This document shows, one piece after another, positions 7,658-21,809 of a stretch of DNA of 27,780 nt. Each line of letters opens with the position of its first letter. The stretch's first letter is position 1. The stretch lies in the IMG/VR virus record IMGVR_UViG_3300017748_000097, positions 1 through 27,780 of that record. One strand, 5' to 3'. The translations under genes were made by a program, and so were the position numbers. The notes beneath the pieces are model-generated. The model did not search any database, had not been told where the DNA came from, and saw only the letters and a list, made by a program, of their open reading frames with translations. The stretch is from a virus.

Positions 7658-9352
7658 TCACATGCTACGTAGATTTGTAACAGTGTTTGACTCTAAGTGT
7701 AAAACAAACCGCCATTTTCCATTGCTCCAACTCTTCTGCACTACCTGACATTTATGATCAACTAAGCCCAGCTCGGCGCTATTTAGTGCCACCACATCAC
7801 CCAAAGCCAAATAACCATATTTACCGACAGCTTCAAATTCAATAGCCATAGATCCTAAAGATCTTTGGTGTATTCTGTCCCTGGCTATTTTTACTGCTGT
7901 GTTAAAATCCCAGACAAAAGGCAGGGTTAAAACCTCTTCTTTCACACCAAATCTTTCTGCTGATACTTTTGCAATATTATCAGGAAAGATCATGGCGGTT
8001 TCTGTTGTGATAAATGGATCTATGCCAACAGTAGACAGGTATCTATCAAACTCGCCTTCATAGCAGAATTGCACAATCAATTTATTAACAACTTCAATAT
8101 CTAAAGGCTGGAGTCCGGTTAGTGGTTGGAACTCTCCAGAAGTATAAATTGTGTATTGTGTTTCAATCTTTTGTACATAATGATACATATCTAATTGAGC
8201 TCTGATTCCTTTTGGACCCTGAGTCACTGCAATTGGTAAATACTCAATAATGTTTTTTTGTAACCACTCTAAGGCATTTACTTCTGGGTCATTGGCAAAA
8301 CCAGCAAATTTATATTCATTTAGAATTGTCTTCAAACCTACAAAGGATTCTCTATCAATTTCCAAATCAAGCAGATCTAAAACATACAGACAAAGATCAC
8401 CGCCACCAGTTAATAAACCACCCTCCAAAACATTCGTAAAGCCGCCGTCATTTTCACCCCAGCTGGCCCAGAAGGTTTGGTCATTATCTAAACCAGGCAC
8501 AAAGCTGTTATCTTCTACTACTGATCCAGATTGATATCTTACCAAACTGTATAAATTTCCATCTGCATCTTTATCTAACAATACTGTGTTTCTAAAGTTG
8601 CCACCAGTCTGATCAAAAATACGGACCTGACTCGCCTCTACATCATGCCCGGCTATCAAAAAATCAACCACAATGGAGGCACCAGATCCAGAAGAGTTAA
8701 CAATGTATGAAGGTGATACATGAGCTATGCTATTAAATTTTACCGCATGATTATTGCCAGTTCTGCTGGGCCAGTTGCCAGGTATACCAAAGACAAAAGG
8801 CGCGTATTTTCCTTTGGGAAACTCCACTAAGCCCTGGAGATTTGGGAACTTGTATACATCAATTTCAAAACTATTTTCAAGGAGCTTCACATTGGTAGTT
8901 TGTAAATCATTTTGTATTGAAAAAATAATATATCCTTCTGGCCTATTTGGAGTCCCAAATATGGGATCAACTACCCTGCCTTTATATAAATGAATCTTAT
9001 TCATTTCTGTTTGTAGTGCTGCTCCATTGCGTACAGTTACCATAGACAAAGTACAAATTGAATGATTTATTAATCGACCCTGCAACCATTCATTAACCCA
9101 ATTTATATCTTTAAAAATCAGCTCCACTGCCAAGGTAGTAACCTCCAAATCAAAACCAACAAAAGATATACTCTGATCCAAATCTGGATCAGACAAACCG
9201 CCCTCATATCTGTTTGTAGTGTTGTTAATAGTGTCTGTAATGTCAATTGTAAATGTCGAGAATCTGTATGGAGCTCCCATATATTCAATTTCAAGTAAAA
9301 AACAAACTTCACTACCAATTAAATCAGCTTCATTGATTAGGGTGTTTATCAT
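7658..9352 (-). CDS. Putative tail-tip / baseplate hub protein
   Basis: A 564-residue protein that lies directly after the large spike gene and before the endolysin. The N-terminal third is rich in beta strands, with a GRVVDPIFGTPNRP segment like those of tail-hub proteins (rings built from gp27/DUF2163-type folds). The C-terminal third has 'ARDRIHQRSLGSMAIEFEA...GYLALGDVVALNS', the pattern of the final beta domain in gpJ/hub-type tail proteins. The exact family is not certain. The ATG overlaps the spike stop (ATGA) with GAGGAG upstream. Its role is likely at the distal end of the tail, connecting tube and receptor-binding protein. Confidence 0.65.
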   Translation of the reverse strand: MINTLINEADLIGSEVCFLLEIEYMGAPYRFSTFTIDITDTINNTTNRYEGGLSDPDLDQSISFVGFDLEVTTLAVELIFKDINWVNEWLQGRLINHSICTLSMVTVRNGAALQTEMNKIHLYKGRVVDPIFGTPNRPEGYIIFSIQNDLQTTNVKLLENSFEIDVYKFPNLQGLVEFPKGKYAPFVFGIPGNWPSRTGNNHAVKFNSIAHVSPSYIVNSSGSGASIVVDFLIAGHDVEASQVRIFDQTGGNFRNTVLLDKDADGNLYSLVRYQSGSVVEDNSFVPGLDNDQTFWASWGENDGGFTNVLEGGLLTGGGDLCLYVLDLLDLEIDRESFVGLKTILNEYKFAGFANDPEVNALEWLQKNIIEYLPIAVTQGPKGIRAQLDMYHYVQKIETQYTIYTSGEFQPLTGLQPLDIEVVNKLIVQFCYEGEFDRYLSTVGIDPFITTETAMIFPDNIAKVSAERFGVKEEVLTLPFVWDFNTAVKIARDRIHQRSLGSMAIEFEAVGKYGYLALGDVVALNSAELGLVDHKCQVVQKSWSNGKWRFVLHLESNTVTNLRSM

Positions 9353-12300
9353 TCGAGCTCCTCTAGATTTATTGTGGCAACCCTAAATAGCTCATCTTTC
9401 TGCTCTTCACCCAGTACAGACTCTATGGTGATATCTCCAGTAGTTCTGCACAACATCTGATCATGGTACCTGTTAAAAACCTGTGTATCATCTGATCCAG
9501 TGCTCTTTTTTAAACTGGGCAAATATACAATAGGAGTCTGATTTGCTAGGTATCTAATTAACCCCATCATTTGAAAAGGGGCATCACCATAATTGGCCAC
9601 AGGCTGTGATCCTGCTGTGGTTGAGTACTGCCAATAATCTGGACTAATGCTCATTATTGATCTGGTGTCCACTGCTTCTGTCCAGGCTATACTGGCGATT
9701 CTTCTGCCATCTGATAGCTTTCTACTGTGGAAAAGCCCATCTAATGATTCACTGCTTTGGGTATTTGGTAGATATGATATATTTCTACCCCTCTGATACT
9801 GTGGAGCCATAAATAAAACATTGCCCACCACCAGTGATCCAATCTGATGATATCCTTCTAAACTGGTTTGACTATCGACCTCCAGAGCTATTGCATACTC
9901 ACCAGGGGTACCACTTGAAGACAACAGCTCATGGGCTATGGTTATTTTATCTGGCATCAATTTAATGTTACCACTGGTGGGAAGAGTTGCCGGATCTGTT
10001 AAACTTGTATCAAAGACCAGAATCGATCTTTTGTGTGTAGATTGATTACCCCAGACTCCTTCTGAGTTTTGAACAATTTTTACTATATAGGTGTCTTCTC
10101 CACTGGTTAATTCTGCTCTCCAATTTCTGCACTCATCATAATGTAAATAAAAGTCAGTTGCAGAGCTGTTGGGTTGTAAAGTACTACCTACTCTCTGAAA
10201 AGTACCTTGGAGTCCTGTGCTGGTGTCAATGGTAACAGCAGTGGCCCATGCTGCACCATTCCACAGCTGGAGCTTTCCTTTTCTCCAATTAATATTAGAT
10301 AAATGTATCCCCAGCACATCTGATAGACCTAAGTTTCTGGCAGTGCTGCCCACCTTTGGATCTACGTAGAAAGCTATTTTATTGGCTGTGGCGTCTTTTG
10401 ACCTCCACACAATCTGAGTCGATAAGCTCACCTGATAAAATATATTATCAATAGAATAGTCATATCTTGGTTTTATTTTGTATTCTTCTGTGGCTCGTGC
10501 TGGTGCTTCTCTGGCAGTCAATAGCAGTCCGGAATCTACATATCTAAATTTACCAAACTGGGGATAGAGTGATCCTCTCAATGTACTATTCTGTGCACCT
10601 GTTCCACTCTCTGATACAAAAAATTCAGACCATGAGCTCTGTGCTGTGAAGCTTGCAGTATGACCCCACCTTAAAGAGTTTCCTGCTCCTGTGGCTTGTG
10701 CTGCCACTGTTAGTGATAGTTTGGTCCATTTCTTTGCTTGCTTTTCATCCCATACCCGGTAAAACACTGTTAATGCTGTTTTTTTGTGGAAGCATACAAA
10801 CTCTACCTCACTAGTCATATCTTGAGTCACACTAGATAGAACTGTTGTGCCATCATGAATTAAAAAGCCAGCAGTGCCAAATCTAAAATTAACTTCGTAG
10901 CTGTTAGATGTGTCATCAGAAGTTTTTAGCATACCAATATAGTGTGTGGTTAAATCATTACCTGTGGTGACTTTGAGCTTCCATCTCCAATATTGAGCTT
11001 CTGACAGATTACCAGAATATGTATAAAATTTTGTGTTGCTGCTGGTGTTGATTCTCAATCCATCAGATAAGACACTACCAGTACCAGATCCAGTGGCACT
11101 ATACACACTAGCAGTATCTGGTGTGTTATTTGCGATCCATGTGCTTTTCCAATTGTTGTAATTAAATCTATCAGGTTGATCCACCAGTGCAGGGAAAGAG
11201 AATGAACTATAACCACCAAAATACATTAGAGCTATAGAGTTATTGGTACCCACCATTATTATTGATCGGCCTTCCCAGACAGTAGCTTTTAACCCCTTGT
11301 GCACTGTGCTGCTGTTTGGCTGGTATACTGTTCCCTCTGCTAATGTTGGACTAAAACCACCTGCTATGTATTGCCAAGTATCGCCATTATCAGCAGATAA
11401 GAATCCAACCATTTTTTTATTAGTGTCCTCTGCTACTACATACAAGTACCCCTCATTAAACCAGCTCGTAATGTTACCACCCGATAGGTAAAAATTAGAT
11501 CCTGATCCTGTTGCTGTTTGAGTACAAAATGTAAGAGTACCACTTGATATGGTTTTCTGTTTGGCAGTTAAATACTCAGTAGCTCCCGCTTGCACGCCGG
11601 GGTGTGGAATATTTACATGTTTCAAATCCTGTGTTGCACTCAAATAAGACAAAGCAATTGATCCATTAGGTAATCCCACAGCAACCAGCTCATGAAAGTA
11701 TCCATTAGATATGGGTACAGACTGTGTAAAAGTTGTACCTTGATCTCTAGAGATTAGAGCCACCATGTCATTTTCACCGACCCCAGAAAGACCATGAAAA
11801 CTGATAAAAATTATCACAATATCATTAGATACAATCATAGTGGTTTTATCAATAGCTCGACCTGATCCGGCGGTTACATTGATGGATTGATCTTGTAAAG
11901 CTCTCTCTGCTATATTTTGCCAGTTTGATCCATTATCAAAAGACCGCCAAACTACAATGTTGACAAAGTTATCATTAGTGTAATTAAAATATGCAACCAA
12001 TATAGATCCATCATTTAAAATGGTGATCATGGGCTTTGCTGTGGAGCTGGGGCTGCTCGATAGGGTACCTGTGAAAAATGTTTTCAGTGTAGTTATTGAT
12101 CCATTCTGCTTTTGGCTGTGGCATGAAATGGTGTATATACCACTATTGATAAGCTCACTCACAGAATAAAGAGTCCCATCTGAATCAGCGATACATGCAA
12201 AATCTTCGTATCCAGGAGAGCTGCTAAACTTCCAATATTTAAAGTCAGTTAATATATTGTCATGATCTTTACCCAGTTCTGTGGCGTCCTCTCCTTCCCA

Positions 12301-12537
12301 TATAAATGTTGCAGTTTTACCTGGTACACCTCCTTCTCGTGTTGTGACTCTAATTGTTTCGGCTTGTGATCCTGCACAGGTTAAAACTAATGATGTACCA
12401 TCTTGAGCTGGTGCTGGTATGCCGGCACGTGGATTTTTTTGGCTAAAAGTACTTTGAGCTGTCCATATATTTTGCTCTGATACTGTGGAGATGGGCACCA
12501 CTAACCCTCTCATTTTATCTGGTGTTATATTGCTCAT
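9349..12537 (-). CDS. Asp-box (sialidase-like propeller) tail spike / receptor-binding protein
   Basis: A 1062-residue beta-rich protein, the largest in the window. At least three Asp-box/BNR motifs (SxDxGxTW) are visible: SFDNGSNW (199-206), SRDQGTTF (263-270) and SADNGDTW (381-388), each on a turn between propeller-like strands. Residues about 440-640 look like a jelly-roll or laminin-G-type carbohydrate-binding domain, with further beta domains to the C-terminus. This suggests binding, and perhaps hydrolysis, of a surface glycan. Asp-boxes alone do not prove sialidase activity, and I did not find the arginine triad with confidence. It sits after the tape measure, as expected for a tail-tip protein. 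A head-binding or tail-attachment segment probably lies in residues 1-60. Confidence 0.75.
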   Translation of the reverse strand: MSNITPDKMRGLVVPISTVSEQNIWTAQSTFSQKNPRAGIPAPAQDGTSLVLTCAGSQAETIRVTTREGGVPGKTATFIWEGEDATELGKDHDNILTDFKYWKFSSSPGYEDFACIADSDGTLYSVSELINSGIYTISCHSQKQNGSITTLKTFFTGTLSSSPSSTAKPMITILNDGSILVAYFNYTNDNFVNIVVWRSFDNGSNWQNIAERALQDQSINVTAGSGRAIDKTTMIVSNDIVIIFISFHGLSGVGENDMVALISRDQGTTFTQSVPISNGYFHELVAVGLPNGSIALSYLSATQDLKHVNIPHPGVQAGATEYLTAKQKTISSGTLTFCTQTATGSGSNFYLSGGNITSWFNEGYLYVVAEDTNKKMVGFLSADNGDTWQYIAGGFSPTLAEGTVYQPNSSTVHKGLKATVWEGRSIIMVGTNNSIALMYFGGYSSFSFPALVDQPDRFNYNNWKSTWIANNTPDTASVYSATGSGTGSVLSDGLRINTSSNTKFYTYSGNLSEAQYWRWKLKVTTGNDLTTHYIGMLKTSDDTSNSYEVNFRFGTAGFLIHDGTTVLSSVTQDMTSEVEFVCFHKKTALTVFYRVWDEKQAKKWTKLSLTVAAQATGAGNSLRWGHTASFTAQSSWSEFFVSESGTGAQNSTLRGSLYPQFGKFRYVDSGLLLTAREAPARATEEYKIKPRYDYSIDNIFYQVSLSTQIVWRSKDATANKIAFYVDPKVGSTARNLGLSDVLGIHLSNINWRKGKLQLWNGAAWATAVTIDTSTGLQGTFQRVGSTLQPNSSATDFYLHYDECRNWRAELTSGEDTYIVKIVQNSEGVWGNQSTHKRSILVFDTSLTDPATLPTSGNIKLMPDKITIAHELLSSSGTPGEYAIALEVDSQTSLEGYHQIGSLVVGNVLFMAPQYQRGRNISYLPNTQSSESLDGLFHSRKLSDGRRIASIAWTEAVDTRSIMSISPDYWQYSTTAGSQPVANYGDAPFQMMGLIRYLANQTPIVYLPSLKKSTGSDDTQVFNRYHDQMLCRTTGDITIESVLGEEQKDELFRVATINLEELE

Positions 12538-12538
12538 T

Positions 12539-14536
12539 TTAATATGCCTTTATTCCTGTACTCTTTGGAGACTTCAAGCCAATTTCTCTAGCAAATCTGC
12601 CAAAGTGTCTGAATGGCTGAATGATTACAACCTGATCCCGATCTGATCCTTGTTGCTGTAATTGTTTAACACCTTGCTCACCGCCAATCCTTCTGACTGT
12701 AGCTCTATCTAGTATGGCTTCACCCCTCAAAACTCTAGCTCCCATCTCATCTGGTGCCAGTCCACCCATGTGGAAGCTCGGAGGCTGTTTACTGGCCACC
12801 ACTGCTGATTGTGTTGCACCTGTGGCAACTGCCAAAATACTGGCCGCTATTGCCTGTGGTGTACCAGGGCCATATACAGCTTGAGCTTTCATTACTGCCT
12901 CTGCTGTACTCATACCAATATCAGCAATAGAAAGAGCTTGTTCTGCCCTGAAAAATGCTGTCATTATTTTCTTTTGTCTGGTTATTCTGTCCTGTTCCAT
13001 TTGAGACAGTTTATCAAACTCTTCTCTTTCTTTTTGTCTCTCTGCTACTACATTTTGTTGGTTAATAAAAAGATTAGAATAGATCATTTCTAGATCACTG
13101 GCAATGGTGCCAAGATCACCAATTAAATCCTTAATGATTTCTTCGTCAATTTCTTTAATCTGTTCTCTATTCTTTAGTGAGAGCTCATGAATTTCTTGTT
13201 CTTTCTGGAGTCTCAGTTCTGCTATTGTTATCTGGTGTGTGAACTCTTCACCGCTTATCAGTGCAAGTTTTTTTAATCTTTGCTCATCAGCCTTAAATCT
13301 TTCTTCAATTTCTCTTATAGCTTTTTCATGTTCTGTCTCTCTGAGTTTTACCAAAGACAGCTCCAGCTCCTGCTTTGCTTGAAATGTTTTCTCAGCATCT
13401 GTGGTGGAGTTGATTATTTTTTGTACTTCTAGCTCTGCTTCTAATCTGGCTTCTGCTGCCTCTGCTGCATCATTTTCTAATTGAAGTTGTCTTTCTTTTT
13501 CTTTTGTTTGTTCAAATTCAAATTCAAATTGTTGTTTGGCCACCTCTACTGCTTGATCTCTGTTGGTGGTTATCTGATTTAATACTTCAATTTGAGCTAT
13601 AAGATTATCTGTTATTGCTTTGTCGATTGGCACTAGTGCTCTAATTGTTTCGCCTCTTTTTTCACCCAGCACTACATTTTTATCTGCGGCCGGTATTTGG
13701 AGCTGTAGAAGTCTGAGTCTTTCTTTTTCAGCCTCTGTCATGCCCATCTGGCCTTTCTGTAATCTATTTATTAGAGCTAAATCATCTTGTCTTTGTTGTA
13801 TGATTTCTTTTTGGCTTTGTATATTAGACTCAAACTGGGCCGCTGCTGATTTACCGGCTTGTGATAGTGCAAAATCAAAATCATTTATTTCACCTGTGGT
13901 GTGAGATAGTTGATCCTCCATATCTCTTAATTTTTCAAAACTGTTTAATAAATTGTCTTTTTGTGATCGCAATGATCCAGATAGAGATTTAGTAGCTTCT
14001 CGCATGTCTATGGTGAGCTGTTTGGCTTTCTCTGCCTCTTTATGGTATTGGGTGTATGCCAAAGTTACTGCACCAATGGCCAAACCAGCACCCACCACCA
14101 GTGGATTTAACCCCTTAAAAGACATTGCCAGTCCTTCTGTAACTGCGCTGGCATCTGCTAAACCTTCAGCTGCTTCGGCTAATTCTGGATTGACTGCTCT
14201 TAATGCTAAACCTATTGCGGAAAAGCCTCTATCCACATCCCCTGCCTGTTCTCCGACCTCACCGATCTTCTCTTTTGCATCATTGGCAGAGTCCGCCATA
14301 TCTTTAAAAGATTGGCCACCTCTTCTGGCCGCTGCTGCTGCTGATTTTGCAGCTTTCTTCTGGGCATCTGCTGACTTTTTGGCGGCCCTCTCTGCCTGTT
14401 TGAGCTGGCGGTCCAACTCTGCCACCATTTTTTTAGCCTCGATGCCTGTGACATTAGGTAGAGTTTTGAGCTTACTAACCAGATCCTTTAGATTTGCTTT
14501 GTAACTGATTTCTATACTTTTCTTTTCTTCTGCCAT
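12539..14536 (-). CDS. Tail tape measure protein
   Basis: A 665-residue protein dominated by Ala/Glu/Lys/Gln-rich heptads (about 40-100, 170-260 and 310-540), with two hydrophobic stretches: about 142-161 (PLVVGAGLAIGAVTLAY) and about 561-581. The C-terminus carries the GGLAPDEMGARVLRGEAIL and IGGEQGV segments seen at the ends of many tape measures. The protein sets tail length by spanning the tube lumen. By the usual 0.15 nm per residue this would correspond to a tail near 100 nm. It follows the tail chaperone and a gp10-like gene, and precedes the spike. Confidence 0.9.
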   Translation of the reverse strand: MAEEKKSIEISYKANLKDLVSKLKTLPNVTGIEAKKMVAELDRQLKQAERAAKKSADAQKKAAKSAAAAARRGGQSFKDMADSANDAKEKIGEVGEQAGDVDRGFSAIGLALRAVNPELAEAAEGLADASAVTEGLAMSFKGLNPLVVGAGLAIGAVTLAYTQYHKEAEKAKQLTIDMREATKSLSGSLRSQKDNLLNSFEKLRDMEDQLSHTTGEINDFDFALSQAGKSAAAQFESNIQSQKEIIQQRQDDLALINRLQKGQMGMTEAEKERLRLLQLQIPAADKNVVLGEKRGETIRALVPIDKAITDNLIAQIEVLNQITTNRDQAVEVAKQQFEFEFEQTKEKERQLQLENDAAEAAEARLEAELEVQKIINSTTDAEKTFQAKQELELSLVKLRETEHEKAIREIEERFKADEQRLKKLALISGEEFTHQITIAELRLQKEQEIHELSLKNREQIKEIDEEIIKDLIGDLGTIASDLEMIYSNLFINQQNVVAERQKEREEFDKLSQMEQDRITRQKKIMTAFFRAEQALSIADIGMSTAEAVMKAQAVYGPGTPQAIAASILAVATGATQSAVVASKQPPSFHMGGLAPDEMGARVLRGEAILDRATVRRIGGEQGVKQLQQQGSDRDQVVIIQPFRHFGRFAREIGLKSPKSTGIKAY

Positions 14537-14538
14537 TG

Positions 14539-15012
14539 TTACACCTTTCTAGCCAGATCATCTGCCAGTGCTTTTACCACGTGCCTGGATCCACGCCGAA
14601 TGGGTTTGACCATGAGCTCTGTTGCCACTCTTTTACCAGTGGGGAAAATGATATCTTTACCTTGCCAGTTTTCACTGTCGATACCAAACTTGATTGTGAA
14701 GGCATAGGGAGCTGTATTTTTCAGAAAGCCAACTATGTTGCCATCTGGATCCACCCGAAAGCCTCTTACAAATTTTTTGTAACTGTCCTTAGACATCTCA
14801 CGAAAAAACACGACTCTGCCATCTCTATCTGTTCTCACTGCTGGCTTTCTTCGGGGCCACTGTCTTTGGGCCTCCTTCTCTATCTCCTCCAGTGTCTGAT
14901 CGATAATCTTCTTTGCACCGGGGGCCACCTTATCGAGAAAACCAGAATAGAAGCTCTGCAAATCATCACCAAAGCTAACAGTGGCATTGCCTTTGGTAAA
15001 TGTATCAGCCAT
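14539..15012 (-). CDS. HK97 gp10-like tail/neck component
   Basis: A 157-residue protein. The N-terminal helix is followed by a WPRRKP segment, a strand region and GFLKNTAPYAFTIKFGI (about 95-112), the 'N.a.YA..i.fG' signature of HK97 gp10-like proteins (tail completion or minor tail). Its ATG overlaps the end of the frameshifted chaperone extension by 8 nt (ATGGCTGA), which also supports that extension. Such proteins usually sit between connector and tail-tube genes; here it lies between the chaperone and the tape measure, which is unusual. The family call is moderate. Confidence 0.6.
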   Translation of the reverse strand: MADTFTKGNATVSFGDDLQSFYSGFLDKVAPGAKKIIDQTLEEIEKEAQRQWPRRKPAVRTDRDGRVVFFREMSKDSYKKFVRGFRVDPDGNIVGFLKNTAPYAFTIKFGIDSENWQGKDIIFPTGKRVATELMVKPIRRGSRHVVKALADDLARKV

Positions 15013-15211
15013 TGAGTCTCCTGTGCTTGTCTATCATCTTTTGCATTTTATCATGTTTGATTCTTTGGTGTCTTTCTTTGGCGCTTTTGGTGTCCTCTGT
15101 GGCTAATCTGTATTCTGCTATTACATGGATTCTGGTCTGTGGTGGCAGTGTATAAAACCAATCTGGATCTCTATTCCATCTTAGTGCTATACGTAGTGCC
15201 AGCAGGTCTAA
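15005..15211 (-). CDS. Tail assembly chaperone -1 frameshift extension (T-like part of G-T)
   Basis: A 68-codon open frame with no suitable start codon, beginning at the stop of the chaperone gene in the -1 frame. It reads LDLLALRIALRWNRDPDWFY and then a charged helical tail ending DKHRRLNG. 'LALR...WNRDP.W....P' is typical of the T domain of lambda-like gpGT. It is reached by slippage on AAAGGGA (15220-15214), giving a predicted 189-residue fusion from 15573. The stop overlaps the next gene's ATG (ATGGCTGA). The extension should recruit the tape measure, while the short form binds tail-tube subunits, as known for lambda. Confidence 0.85.
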   Translation of the reverse strand, partial: LDLLALRIALRWNRDPDWFYTLPPQTRIHVIAEYRLATEDTKSAKERHQRIKHDKMQKMIDKHRRLNG

Positions 15212-15573
15212 GCTCCCTTTGGAGCTTGCGTAAAATTTGCCTGTTCATCCACTGCCTTTTCTGTGGGGATCTGTTGCATCATCTCCACCAGTAGATCAGA
15301 TCCAATCTCATATACATCTGAGACCCTAACCCCAGCAGAAAGAAGCCGATCTAACACTTTGTGACCAAAGGCGATCGGATCTCCATCTGCTATGGGGTAG
15401 GCTGGTAGACACTTGGCATGATCCACACATACTGCAATGGCAGCAGCACACAGCCGACCGAGCTGGGCTCTGTTGGGATCACTACCCCACATGGCTACAA
15501 AATCCAAACACGTGGCCATGCTGGCTGGCATCTGTGTCTGATGTTCTCCTAGCTTTCTTAGATTTATATCCAT
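15208..15573 (-). CDS. Tail assembly chaperone, short form (gpG-like)
   Basis: A 121-residue protein between the tail-tube gene and the tape measure, in the position of lambda gpG. The sequence is helical with several conserved-looking cysteines (TCLDFVAMWGS, LCAAAIAVCVDHAKCLP). It terminates right after a slippery heptamer, where a -1 shift extends it by 69 residues. It is not a virion component in lambda-like systems; it helps tape measure and tail-tube proteins to assemble. A GGAGG-type site lies upstream of the ATG. Confidence 0.82.
   Translation of the reverse strand: MDINLRKLGEHQTQMPASMATCLDFVAMWGSDPNRAQLGRLCAAAIAVCVDHAKCLPAYPIADGDPIAFGHKVLDRLLSAGVRVSDVYEIGSDLLVEMMQQIPTEKAVDEQANFTQAPKGA
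15210..15228 (-). promoter_or_regulatory. Programmed -1 ribosomal frameshift site
   Basis: In the coding (minus) strand the zero-frame codons AAG-GGA lie within A-AAG-GGA (15220-15214), matching X-XXY-YYZ; after slippage the tRNAs re-pair on AAA-GGG. The heptamer sits inside a perfect 7-bp stem, AAGCTCC and GGAGCTT, with loop AAAG (15227-15210). The zero-frame stop TAG is two codons after the slip. A GGGAG purine stretch could also act as a Shine-Dalgarno-like stimulator. Confidence 0.8.
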
Positions 15574-15599: not shown

Positions 15600-16106
15600 T
15601 TATGGACCAGATACCACAGCACCACCATAACAGGTAAAGTTTAGTGTAAATGCAGATGGATCTCCCTCTGCAAAATCTAAATTACATACACATTTAGACA
15701 ATGTAACCTGGTGATCTGCATCATCTCCAAAATCTGTGCCCTCTGCTGTGTATCGAATATCCACACAGTAGTGCTCTACAAATGGAGTGCCAGCAGTGCC
15801 GGTACTGATGTTACCAGAATAAAATCCAGATTTGTTAATAAAATCACGAACTGATCCGGCTTCTCCACTGTCTGCAAATTGGCGAAAATGGAAAGAGAAA
15901 GATCCAGTTATAGCCTGCTCATCTTGGCGACGTATGGCGCTAAAGGATCCACGGTCCATAATGACCAGTTCACTGAATTGTTGTGGTTGTGAGAATGAAA
16001 AATTACCGTCTTCAAAAGCGACGTCTAGAGTCACTGGGGATCCTGTGCCATCACGGAGCTGTATAACTCCATCTCTTTTGGTTTTTGGTACTGTTGAATA
16101 GGCCAT
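15600..16106 (-). CDS. Major tail tube protein
   Basis: A 168-residue beta-rich protein: MAYSTVPKTKRDGVIQLRDG, then alternating strands with the 'GSFSFHFRQF' and 'NLDFAEGDPSAFTLNFTCYGG' segments expected of tail-tube/major tail proteins. Position immediately before the frameshifted chaperone and after the tail-terminator candidate fits. It has a strong GGAGG ribosome site, as expected for an abundant protein. The exact family is not resolved, but the role is well supported by context and length. Confidence 0.85.
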   Translation of the reverse strand: MAYSTVPKTKRDGVIQLRDGTGSPVTLDVAFEDGNFSFSQPQQFSELVIMDRGSFSAIRRQDEQAITGSFSFHFRQFADSGEAGSVRDFINKSGFYSGNISTGTAGTPFVEHYCVDIRYTAEGTDFGDDADHQVTLSKCVCNLDFAEGDPSAFTLNFTCYGGAVVSGP

Positions 16107-20849: not shown

Positions 20850-21155
20850 TCACTCCTCTGTTAATATGATTGTAATGTCACAGGTTGCCGAGCTAGACGC
20901 TATATAAATTGAGTCTGTTCTGTCGCGTCCTTTACCCAATGCAATATGCAACATGTTTTCTTTTGGCACAAATGCATGATTATTTGGCAGAGATCCACCA
21001 TCTGTGCCACCCAGAAAGCAAAAGTATATTTTTTTATCTTCTGATCCTATGGCCACATGGCTGGCTACTCTAGGTAGTACGACCTGAGTCGTGTTGCTAC
21101 TGGCATTAAATACATGTGTGTGTGGGAAAAATTTTACACTTGTTAGATCCTCCAT
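20850..21155 (-). CDS. 101-residue beta-rich virion-type protein
   Basis: A small beta-rich protein: HTHVFNASSNTTQVVLPRVA, VAIGSEDKKIYFCFLGGTDG, and a C-terminal DSIYIASSSATCDITIILTE strand pair. The composition (short strands, Ser/Thr/Gly turns, few helices) suits a decoration or fibre-adaptor protein. It follows the scaffold gene with a GGAGG site and sits before the 70-residue protein. No family is recognised. Confidence 0.6.
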   Translation of the reverse strand: MEDLTSVKFFPHTHVFNASSNTTQVVLPRVASHVAIGSEDKKIYFCFLGGTDGGSLPNNHAFVPKENMLHIALGKGRDRTDSIYIASSSATCDITIILTEE

Positions 21156-21176
21156 TGGTTTACCTCCTTAGATTGA

Positions 21177-21809
21177 TCACTTGTTAAAATATGCTTTTCG
21201 GATGGCGTCACGATTAGCCCGGTAAAAGTCCAAATCATCCAAACCTTTCTGCACTAGATCCGCGCTCTGCATTGGTGCTGGTCTGGCACCTGCATTAGTG
21301 CTAGGTGGTAACAGTGCCGGATTGTCTGGCTGTGCCATTGCCTGTGGCATTGCCTCCACTTCTGGTGCTGCTTCTGTCTCCACCTGTGGGAGCTGCATGT
21401 GTGGTTGCAATATGGCAGGAGCTTTGGTGGGATCCTGTTTTATGTCTGCTAGCCAGTCTGCAAAAGAAAGCTGATCCTTCTTTGCCTTGCCCTTCATCGA
21501 TTTACTATAAGACCATTCAACCGCATCTCTAATGTCTGGATCTGTAAATCCAAAATCTGCCATTGAGGTATGGCGGGTGTATCTAGTATTGGCCTCTGAT
21601 AGTTGAGTCTTGTAATCCTCCACCTGCTGTGCCAAAGTATCAAGTGTGGTTAGTTTACCTTGTATAGCATCCAATTGACCTTGGAGATCTTTGGCCCTAT
21701 CTTCTGAGGCCACTCTATCAGCAGAAAGCTTTTTAATCCTTTCCTGCATTGCTGCTTGCATGGCGTCCTGTGGTACATAAACCACACCCTCGATTACTTT
21801 CTTATCCAT
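21177..21809 (-). CDS. Capsid scaffolding protein
   Basis: A 210-residue protein with a coiled-coil N-terminal half (about 15-75, Gln/Glu/Lys/Leu heptads), a short globular segment (SMADFGFTDPDIRDAVEWSY), a Pro/Ala/Glu-rich linker (about 135-180) and a basic-aromatic C-terminal helix ending DFYRANRDAIRKAYFNK. This composition and the position between portal and capsid fit a scaffold, with the C-terminal helix binding coat protein. Start is coupled to the upstream gene by an 8-nt overlap (ATGGATAA). No protease motif is seen. Confidence 0.82.
   Translation of the reverse strand: MDKKVIEGVVYVPQDAMQAAMQERIKKLSADRVASEDRAKDLQGQLDAIQGKLTTLDTLAQQVEDYKTQLSEANTRYTRHTSMADFGFTDPDIRDAVEWSYSKSMKGKAKKDQLSFADWLADIKQDPTKAPAILQPHMQLPQVETEAAPEVEAMPQAMAQPDNPALLPPSTNAGARPAPMQSADLVQKGLDDLDFYRANRDAIRKAYFNK

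Follow-up and report, generated by a model that had tools for sequence, protein, structure and literature searches.

A probable lambda-type G/GT −1 ribosomal frameshift at A AAU UUU in an unannotated family of environmental phages

Where would ribosomes leave the G frame for the T frame in the tail-gene region of this phage? The window, a virus record of 27,780 bases from a marine-type phage, carries a siphophage-like structural block on its minus strand. A sequence-only reading had placed a G-T frameshift there, with the slip at AAAGGGA inside the loop of its own hairpin. The comparison with relatives described below supports the frameshift and points to a different heptamer, A AAUUUU at 15238–15232, which lies 18 nt upstream of AAAGGGA, as the probable slip site. 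The region contains the following features, listed by coordinates in the window.

12539–14536, minus strand: 665-aa gene at the tape-measure position, carried by 55/55 relatives whose sequence suffices
14539–15012, minus strand: 157-aa gene whose start overlaps the T stop, present in 63/66 relatives with enough sequence
15005–15238, minus strand: T region in the −1 frame, 77 codons plus TGA when the slip site is taken as its beginning
15150–15192, minus strand: second, longer imperfect hairpin of ~15 bp inside T, starting 39 nt downstream of the heptamer (z −5.4 at +35 in the window, relative to synonymous shuffles)
15208–15573, minus strand: G ORF of 121 aa, the short product, a putative tail assembly chaperone (relatives 32–71% identical)
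15210–15227, minus strand: 7-bp stem-loop AAGCUCC-AAAG-GGAGCUU, the probable downstream stimulator, with family-wide excess structure at the same place
15214–15220, minus strand: AAAGGGA, the heptamer of the sequence-only reading, probably not the slip site, found in the window only
15228–15231, minus strand: 4-nt spacer ACGC between heptamer and hairpin
15232–15238, minus strand: A AAT TTT slippery heptamer in the context GCA AAT TTT ACG, the probable −1 slip site, conserved and under codon constraint
15600–16106, minus strand: 168-aa gene at the major-tail-protein position, carried by 72/72 relatives whose sequence suffices

An AAGGAGG-type ribosome site precedes the G ATG. The gene order (tail protein, G/T, 157-aa gene, tape measure) is conserved, and G/T lies between the major tail protein and tape measure positions, with the 157-aa gene intervening. 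The tail identities come from position and weak matches: the 168-aa gene weakly matched an annotated phage 'tail component' (E 0.06), and the 665-aa gene is probably the tape measure, judging by its position and sequence character. When used as a query in the viral contigs, the 157-aa gene gave no match, although relatives carry that gene. The tape measure gene is followed by a 1062-aa protein (window 9349–12537, minus strand) that showed weak BNR/sialidase-repeat matches (PF13088, E 5.9e-5, below the cut-off).

Relatives were collected with G and T queries followed by alignments, and they come from IMG/VR and one Rhodospirillaceae MAG contig. The set comprises 80 distinct loci including the window, of which 77 had both G and T readable and the three others were truncated; 38 loci that were <90% identical to each other were used as representatives. 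The closest relative in a bacterial assembly is the Rhodospirillaceae MAG contig (L156, PBMU01000001.1; 14.7 kb), whose G is 73% identical. This contig may come from a prophage, or else it belongs to a phage and was placed in an alphaproteobacterial bin; it possibly gives a hint of the host.

In all 77 distinct loci, the frame of T is −1 relative to that of G. Conservation of this extent indicates that the G/T overlap is not due to chance, and it strongly supports the G-T frameshift reading. The proposal of a tail-chaperone frameshift is thus borne out by the 77/77 −1 overlaps, the conserved gene order and a conserved slippery heptamer; homologues with the same overlap, on whose existence the sequence-only reading had made its case depend, were found throughout. 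In the window, the zero frame of G ends at TAG (15210–15208), and the −1 frame stays open for 79 codons, from 15244 to the TGA at 15007–15005, which overlaps the ATG (15012) of the next gene. No ATG, GTG or TTG was found near the beginning of the T frame of the window. The sequence-only reading had correctly described the overlap of the −1 stop with the next ATG, the startless nature of the frame and a fusion length of 189 aa. The length of 68 codons that it gave for the −1 frame did not hold, as the frame counts 69 codons from AAAGGGA; furthermore, since its opening is at 15244, a second canonical heptamer, A AAT TTT, falls within it, which was absent from that reading.

The A AAT TTT heptamer is in phase in 72 of the 77 loci and also in the three truncated loci. 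The remaining five of the 77, which are more distant, carry T TTT TTN one codon on. Furthermore, the codons at the site are fixed beyond amino-acid need. The Ala codon is GCA in 73/73 cases, compared with 253/829 (31%) in the rest of these G genes, Asn is AAT in 75/75 cases (110/195 elsewhere in G) and Phe is TTT in 75/75 cases (99/163 elsewhere in G); these counts come from kin loci and are not independent, though 38 of the loci differ mutually by >10%. Two loci lack Ala at the site and have ATA and ACA instead, both retaining the first A of the heptamer. These results indicate that A AAT TTT is selected at the nucleotide level. In 34 of the 77 loci, the G stop comes directly after A AAT TTT (AAT TTT TAG) or one codon on (AAT TTT ACG TAA), and no slip is possible in them at the place of AAAGGGA because the G stop precedes it.

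Two variants of the site were also observed. In a divergent relative (L155, 2477–2510), a −1-frame TGA overlaps the usual place of the heptamer and T TTT TTT follows directly, so that the slip site is pinned to a few bases. Several loci (L014, L059, L067, L071, L085 and similar ones) carry A AAT TTT TTN, in which two in-phase heptamers, A AAT TTT and T TTT TTN, overlap; such loci likely represent a step between the two site types. A phage tail example with AAATTTT was not found in the literature, and a slip example with AAATTTT is known from a Wolbachia hydrolase gene pair (PMC10299305).

Read from A AAT TTT on, the −1 frame of most loci encodes the peptide K/R-F-[YFL]-x-x-x-[RK]-G-x-[LF]-D-[LY]-[LM], with F2 and the Gly of K/R-G present in 38/38 representatives. 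Between A AAT TTT and AAAGGGA, the loci differ from each other more at third codon positions as defined by the −1 frame (0.41) than as defined by the G frame (0.30). Because the −1 peptide between the two sites is conserved, the −1 frame appears to be translated already upstream of AAAGGGA. The predicted fusion of 189 aa reads ...AVDEQANF|YASSKGSLDLLALR..., with the junction EQANF|YASSKGSLDLL. Of the predicted tryptic peptides, AVDEQANFYASSK would arise only from a slip at A AAUUUU, AVDEQANFTQAPK would be common to unshifted G and a fusion made at AAAGGGA, and GSLDLLALR would be shared by the fusions from either site.

What, then, of the hairpin? The 7-bp stem AAGCTCC/GGAGCTT that had been described does exist, with arms at 15227–15221 and 15216–15210. 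Its loop, however, consists of AAAG only (15220–15217), and AAAGGGA therefore does not sit wholly in the loop as had been claimed: one half of it is looped and the other half belongs to the stem, its GGA being in the 3′ arm. With A AAUUUU as the reference point, the stem is a conventional hairpin that begins 4 nt downstream of the heptamer, and the puzzle of a slip site in its own loop disappears because the stem sits at an ordinary place. The 4-nt spacer of the window is slightly under the usual 5–9 nt, and a wider range is known (PMC5009743).

This place is structured across the family. In the 38 representatives, with synonymous-codon shuffles as the folding-energy control, the excess structure peaked in the 50-nt segment starting 5 nt past the heptamer (mean z −1.74), followed by a weaker peak at +29 to +35 (mean z about −1.3), and no excess structure was found in the rest of T. 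The hairpins of the relatives start mostly 4–11 nt past the heptamer and reach down to −23 kcal/mol. The longer hairpin of the window at 15192–15150 may belong to the signal or act as a pseudoknot partner. An upstream Shine-Dalgarno-like stimulator, which is optional in bacteria, gave no signal (mean z −0.1). RNAalifold recovered the downstream stem from an alignment of the L004-like clade, with one pair changed on both sides; pair-by-pair covariation support in this clade is thin because its members are too alike. The stems of the window and of locus L024 lie at an equal distance with a pairing offset of one column, so they are not made of the same pairs. Different local hairpins, several in number, have come to occupy this one place downstream, and the family thus offers a natural data set for the study of stimulators.

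Could AAAGGGA nevertheless be the place of the slip, with the hairpin around it acting in an unusual way? The heptamer is canonical, its X XXY YYZ phasing agrees, as had been claimed, with the G frame (CCA AAG GGA GCT TAG, with one codon, GCT, before TAG where two had been counted), the stem is present, and A AAG is a plausible slippery codon pair. Yet AAAGGGA occurs in one of the 77 loci, the window, and is missing from all of the other 76; its place is behind the end of G in 34; and the conserved −1 peptide between the two heptamers argues for translation of the −1 frame before AAAGGGA is reached. Its presence is explained by coding, because AAA GGG in the −1 frame encodes the conserved Lys/Arg-Gly of T, here Lys followed by the invariant Gly (38/38 representatives). 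Moreover, a ribosome decoding AAAGGGA would presumably cover both arms, making the stem impossible. We consider a slip at this heptamer alone, and with it a slip site inside its own hairpin loop, very unlikely. Coding can leave a canonical heptamer in a single genome as a by-product, and placing a slip site needs relatives.

It is also conceivable that both sites are active in the window: A AAUUUU would be the main site, inherited from the ancestor, and AAAGGGA, 18 nt further on, a second one specific to the lineage. Both heptamers are canonical and in phase, and the two fusions would differ only at residues 115–118 (YASS or TQAP). This arrangement seems unlikely, as the second site is found in no relative and the hairpin downstream of AAAGGGA is 21 nt away from it, beyond the usual range. 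Furthermore, in-frame XXXYYYZ heptamers occupy 11 of 4104 positions in the G genes of the relatives, and at this rate an extra heptamer would fall by chance into a given overlap of ~10 positions in about 3% of cases. We hold the same doubt about the more specific proposal that the window lineage has gained a working AAAGGGA site and that one hairpin both stimulates A AAUUUU and encloses AAAGGGA, tuning the G:GT ratio. Overlapping stop/start arrangements often couple translation in phages, and T might on that ground be a separate protein made by re-initiation or internal initiation, with no fusion; given that no ATG, GTG or TTG lies near the T start and that the conserved residues reach the heptamer in every relative, this is hardly plausible. 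A change of frame by slippage of RNA polymerase rather than the ribosome would fit the T TTT TTN runs of the divergent relatives, but the longest run in A AAT TTT is four, which to our knowledge is too short for transcriptional slippage, and the codon phase is strictly kept, which leaves this explanation extremely improbable. Finally, a single metagenomic contig could hold a sequencing or assembly error that splits one gene in two; the same split in 77/77 distinct loci refutes this, and its probability is practically negligible.

Our preferred reading, to which we assign a probability of about 0.93, is that the window encodes a lambda-type G/GT programmed −1 ribosomal frameshift with the slip at A AAU UUU. 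Most ribosomes would translate G and terminate at the TAG (15210–15208). A minority, their tRNAs paired with AAU and UUU in GC|A AAU UUU (15238–15232), would slip one base back to AAA and UUU and read the −1 frame to the TGA at 15005, producing the 189-aa G-T fusion. The hairpin 4 nt downstream (15227–15210) would pause or pull the ribosome, and the hairpin at 15192–15150 perhaps helps. If the proteins work as in lambda, the tape measure protein would be coated by G and the tail tube protein brought in by the T part, with G-T kept at a fixed low ratio to G. Observed here were the conservation of the frames, the heptamer, the −1-frame peptide and the gene order, together with the codon bias and the excess structure; slippage itself, its rate and the chaperone function we infer.

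The lambda slippery heptamer is GGGAAAG. Lambda and the window family have in common two overlapping ORFs before the tape measure gene, a −1 shift at an XXXYYYZ heptamer close to where G ends and a long fusion that gains a T domain. Because this architecture and position match, a tail chaperone function is suggested by analogy. On the other hand, no sequence relation to lambda is detectable, and the window family differs in its heptamer (A AAU UUU), in its clear downstream hairpins and in the extra 157-aa gene between T and the tape measure gene. The lambda G/GT tail assembly chaperone is made by −1 frameshift (PMC5009743, citing Xu, Hendrix and Duda 2004); the tape measure and tube proteins are the targets of gpG and gpGT, whose ratio is about 30:1 (PMC5009743).

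Do G and T resemble any described proteins? Pfam, PHROGs, PDB sequence, Foldseek and hhalign searches gave nothing significant for G or T, and neither protein had a significant tblastn match in the phage-record collection. AF2 predicts G as small and mostly helical (mean pLDDT 85.8) and T as an all-helical domain (mean pLDDT 88.2), and Foldseek returned nothing below E 0.5. The best lead is a match of T to the C-terminal third of Phage_Gp15/phrog_706 (Pfam PF06854; E 0.01–0.03, below the Pfam cut-off). The likeness is nearly co-linear, with residues 122–181 of the fusion corresponding to 122–180 of 201 in phrog_706, but with E 0.014–0.12, under the curated cut-off, it serves as a lead only. 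The window belongs to a new, unannotated family of the known G-T frameshift kind. The phages that keep this frameshift thereby gain a large environmental family, one for which the phage-record collection searched yielded no relative of G.

A weakly similar major capsid protein (E 7e-4) is found in phage DSL-LC06 (OR003941.1). The genes of this phage follow the arrangement seen in the window, with another heptamer, and its G and T show no homology to those of the window family detectable by profile comparison. Its annotated chaperone (20864–21202) has A AAA AAC in phase at 21193–21199, and an unannotated −1 ORF at 21166–21384, before the tape measure gene, is the T part missing from the public record.
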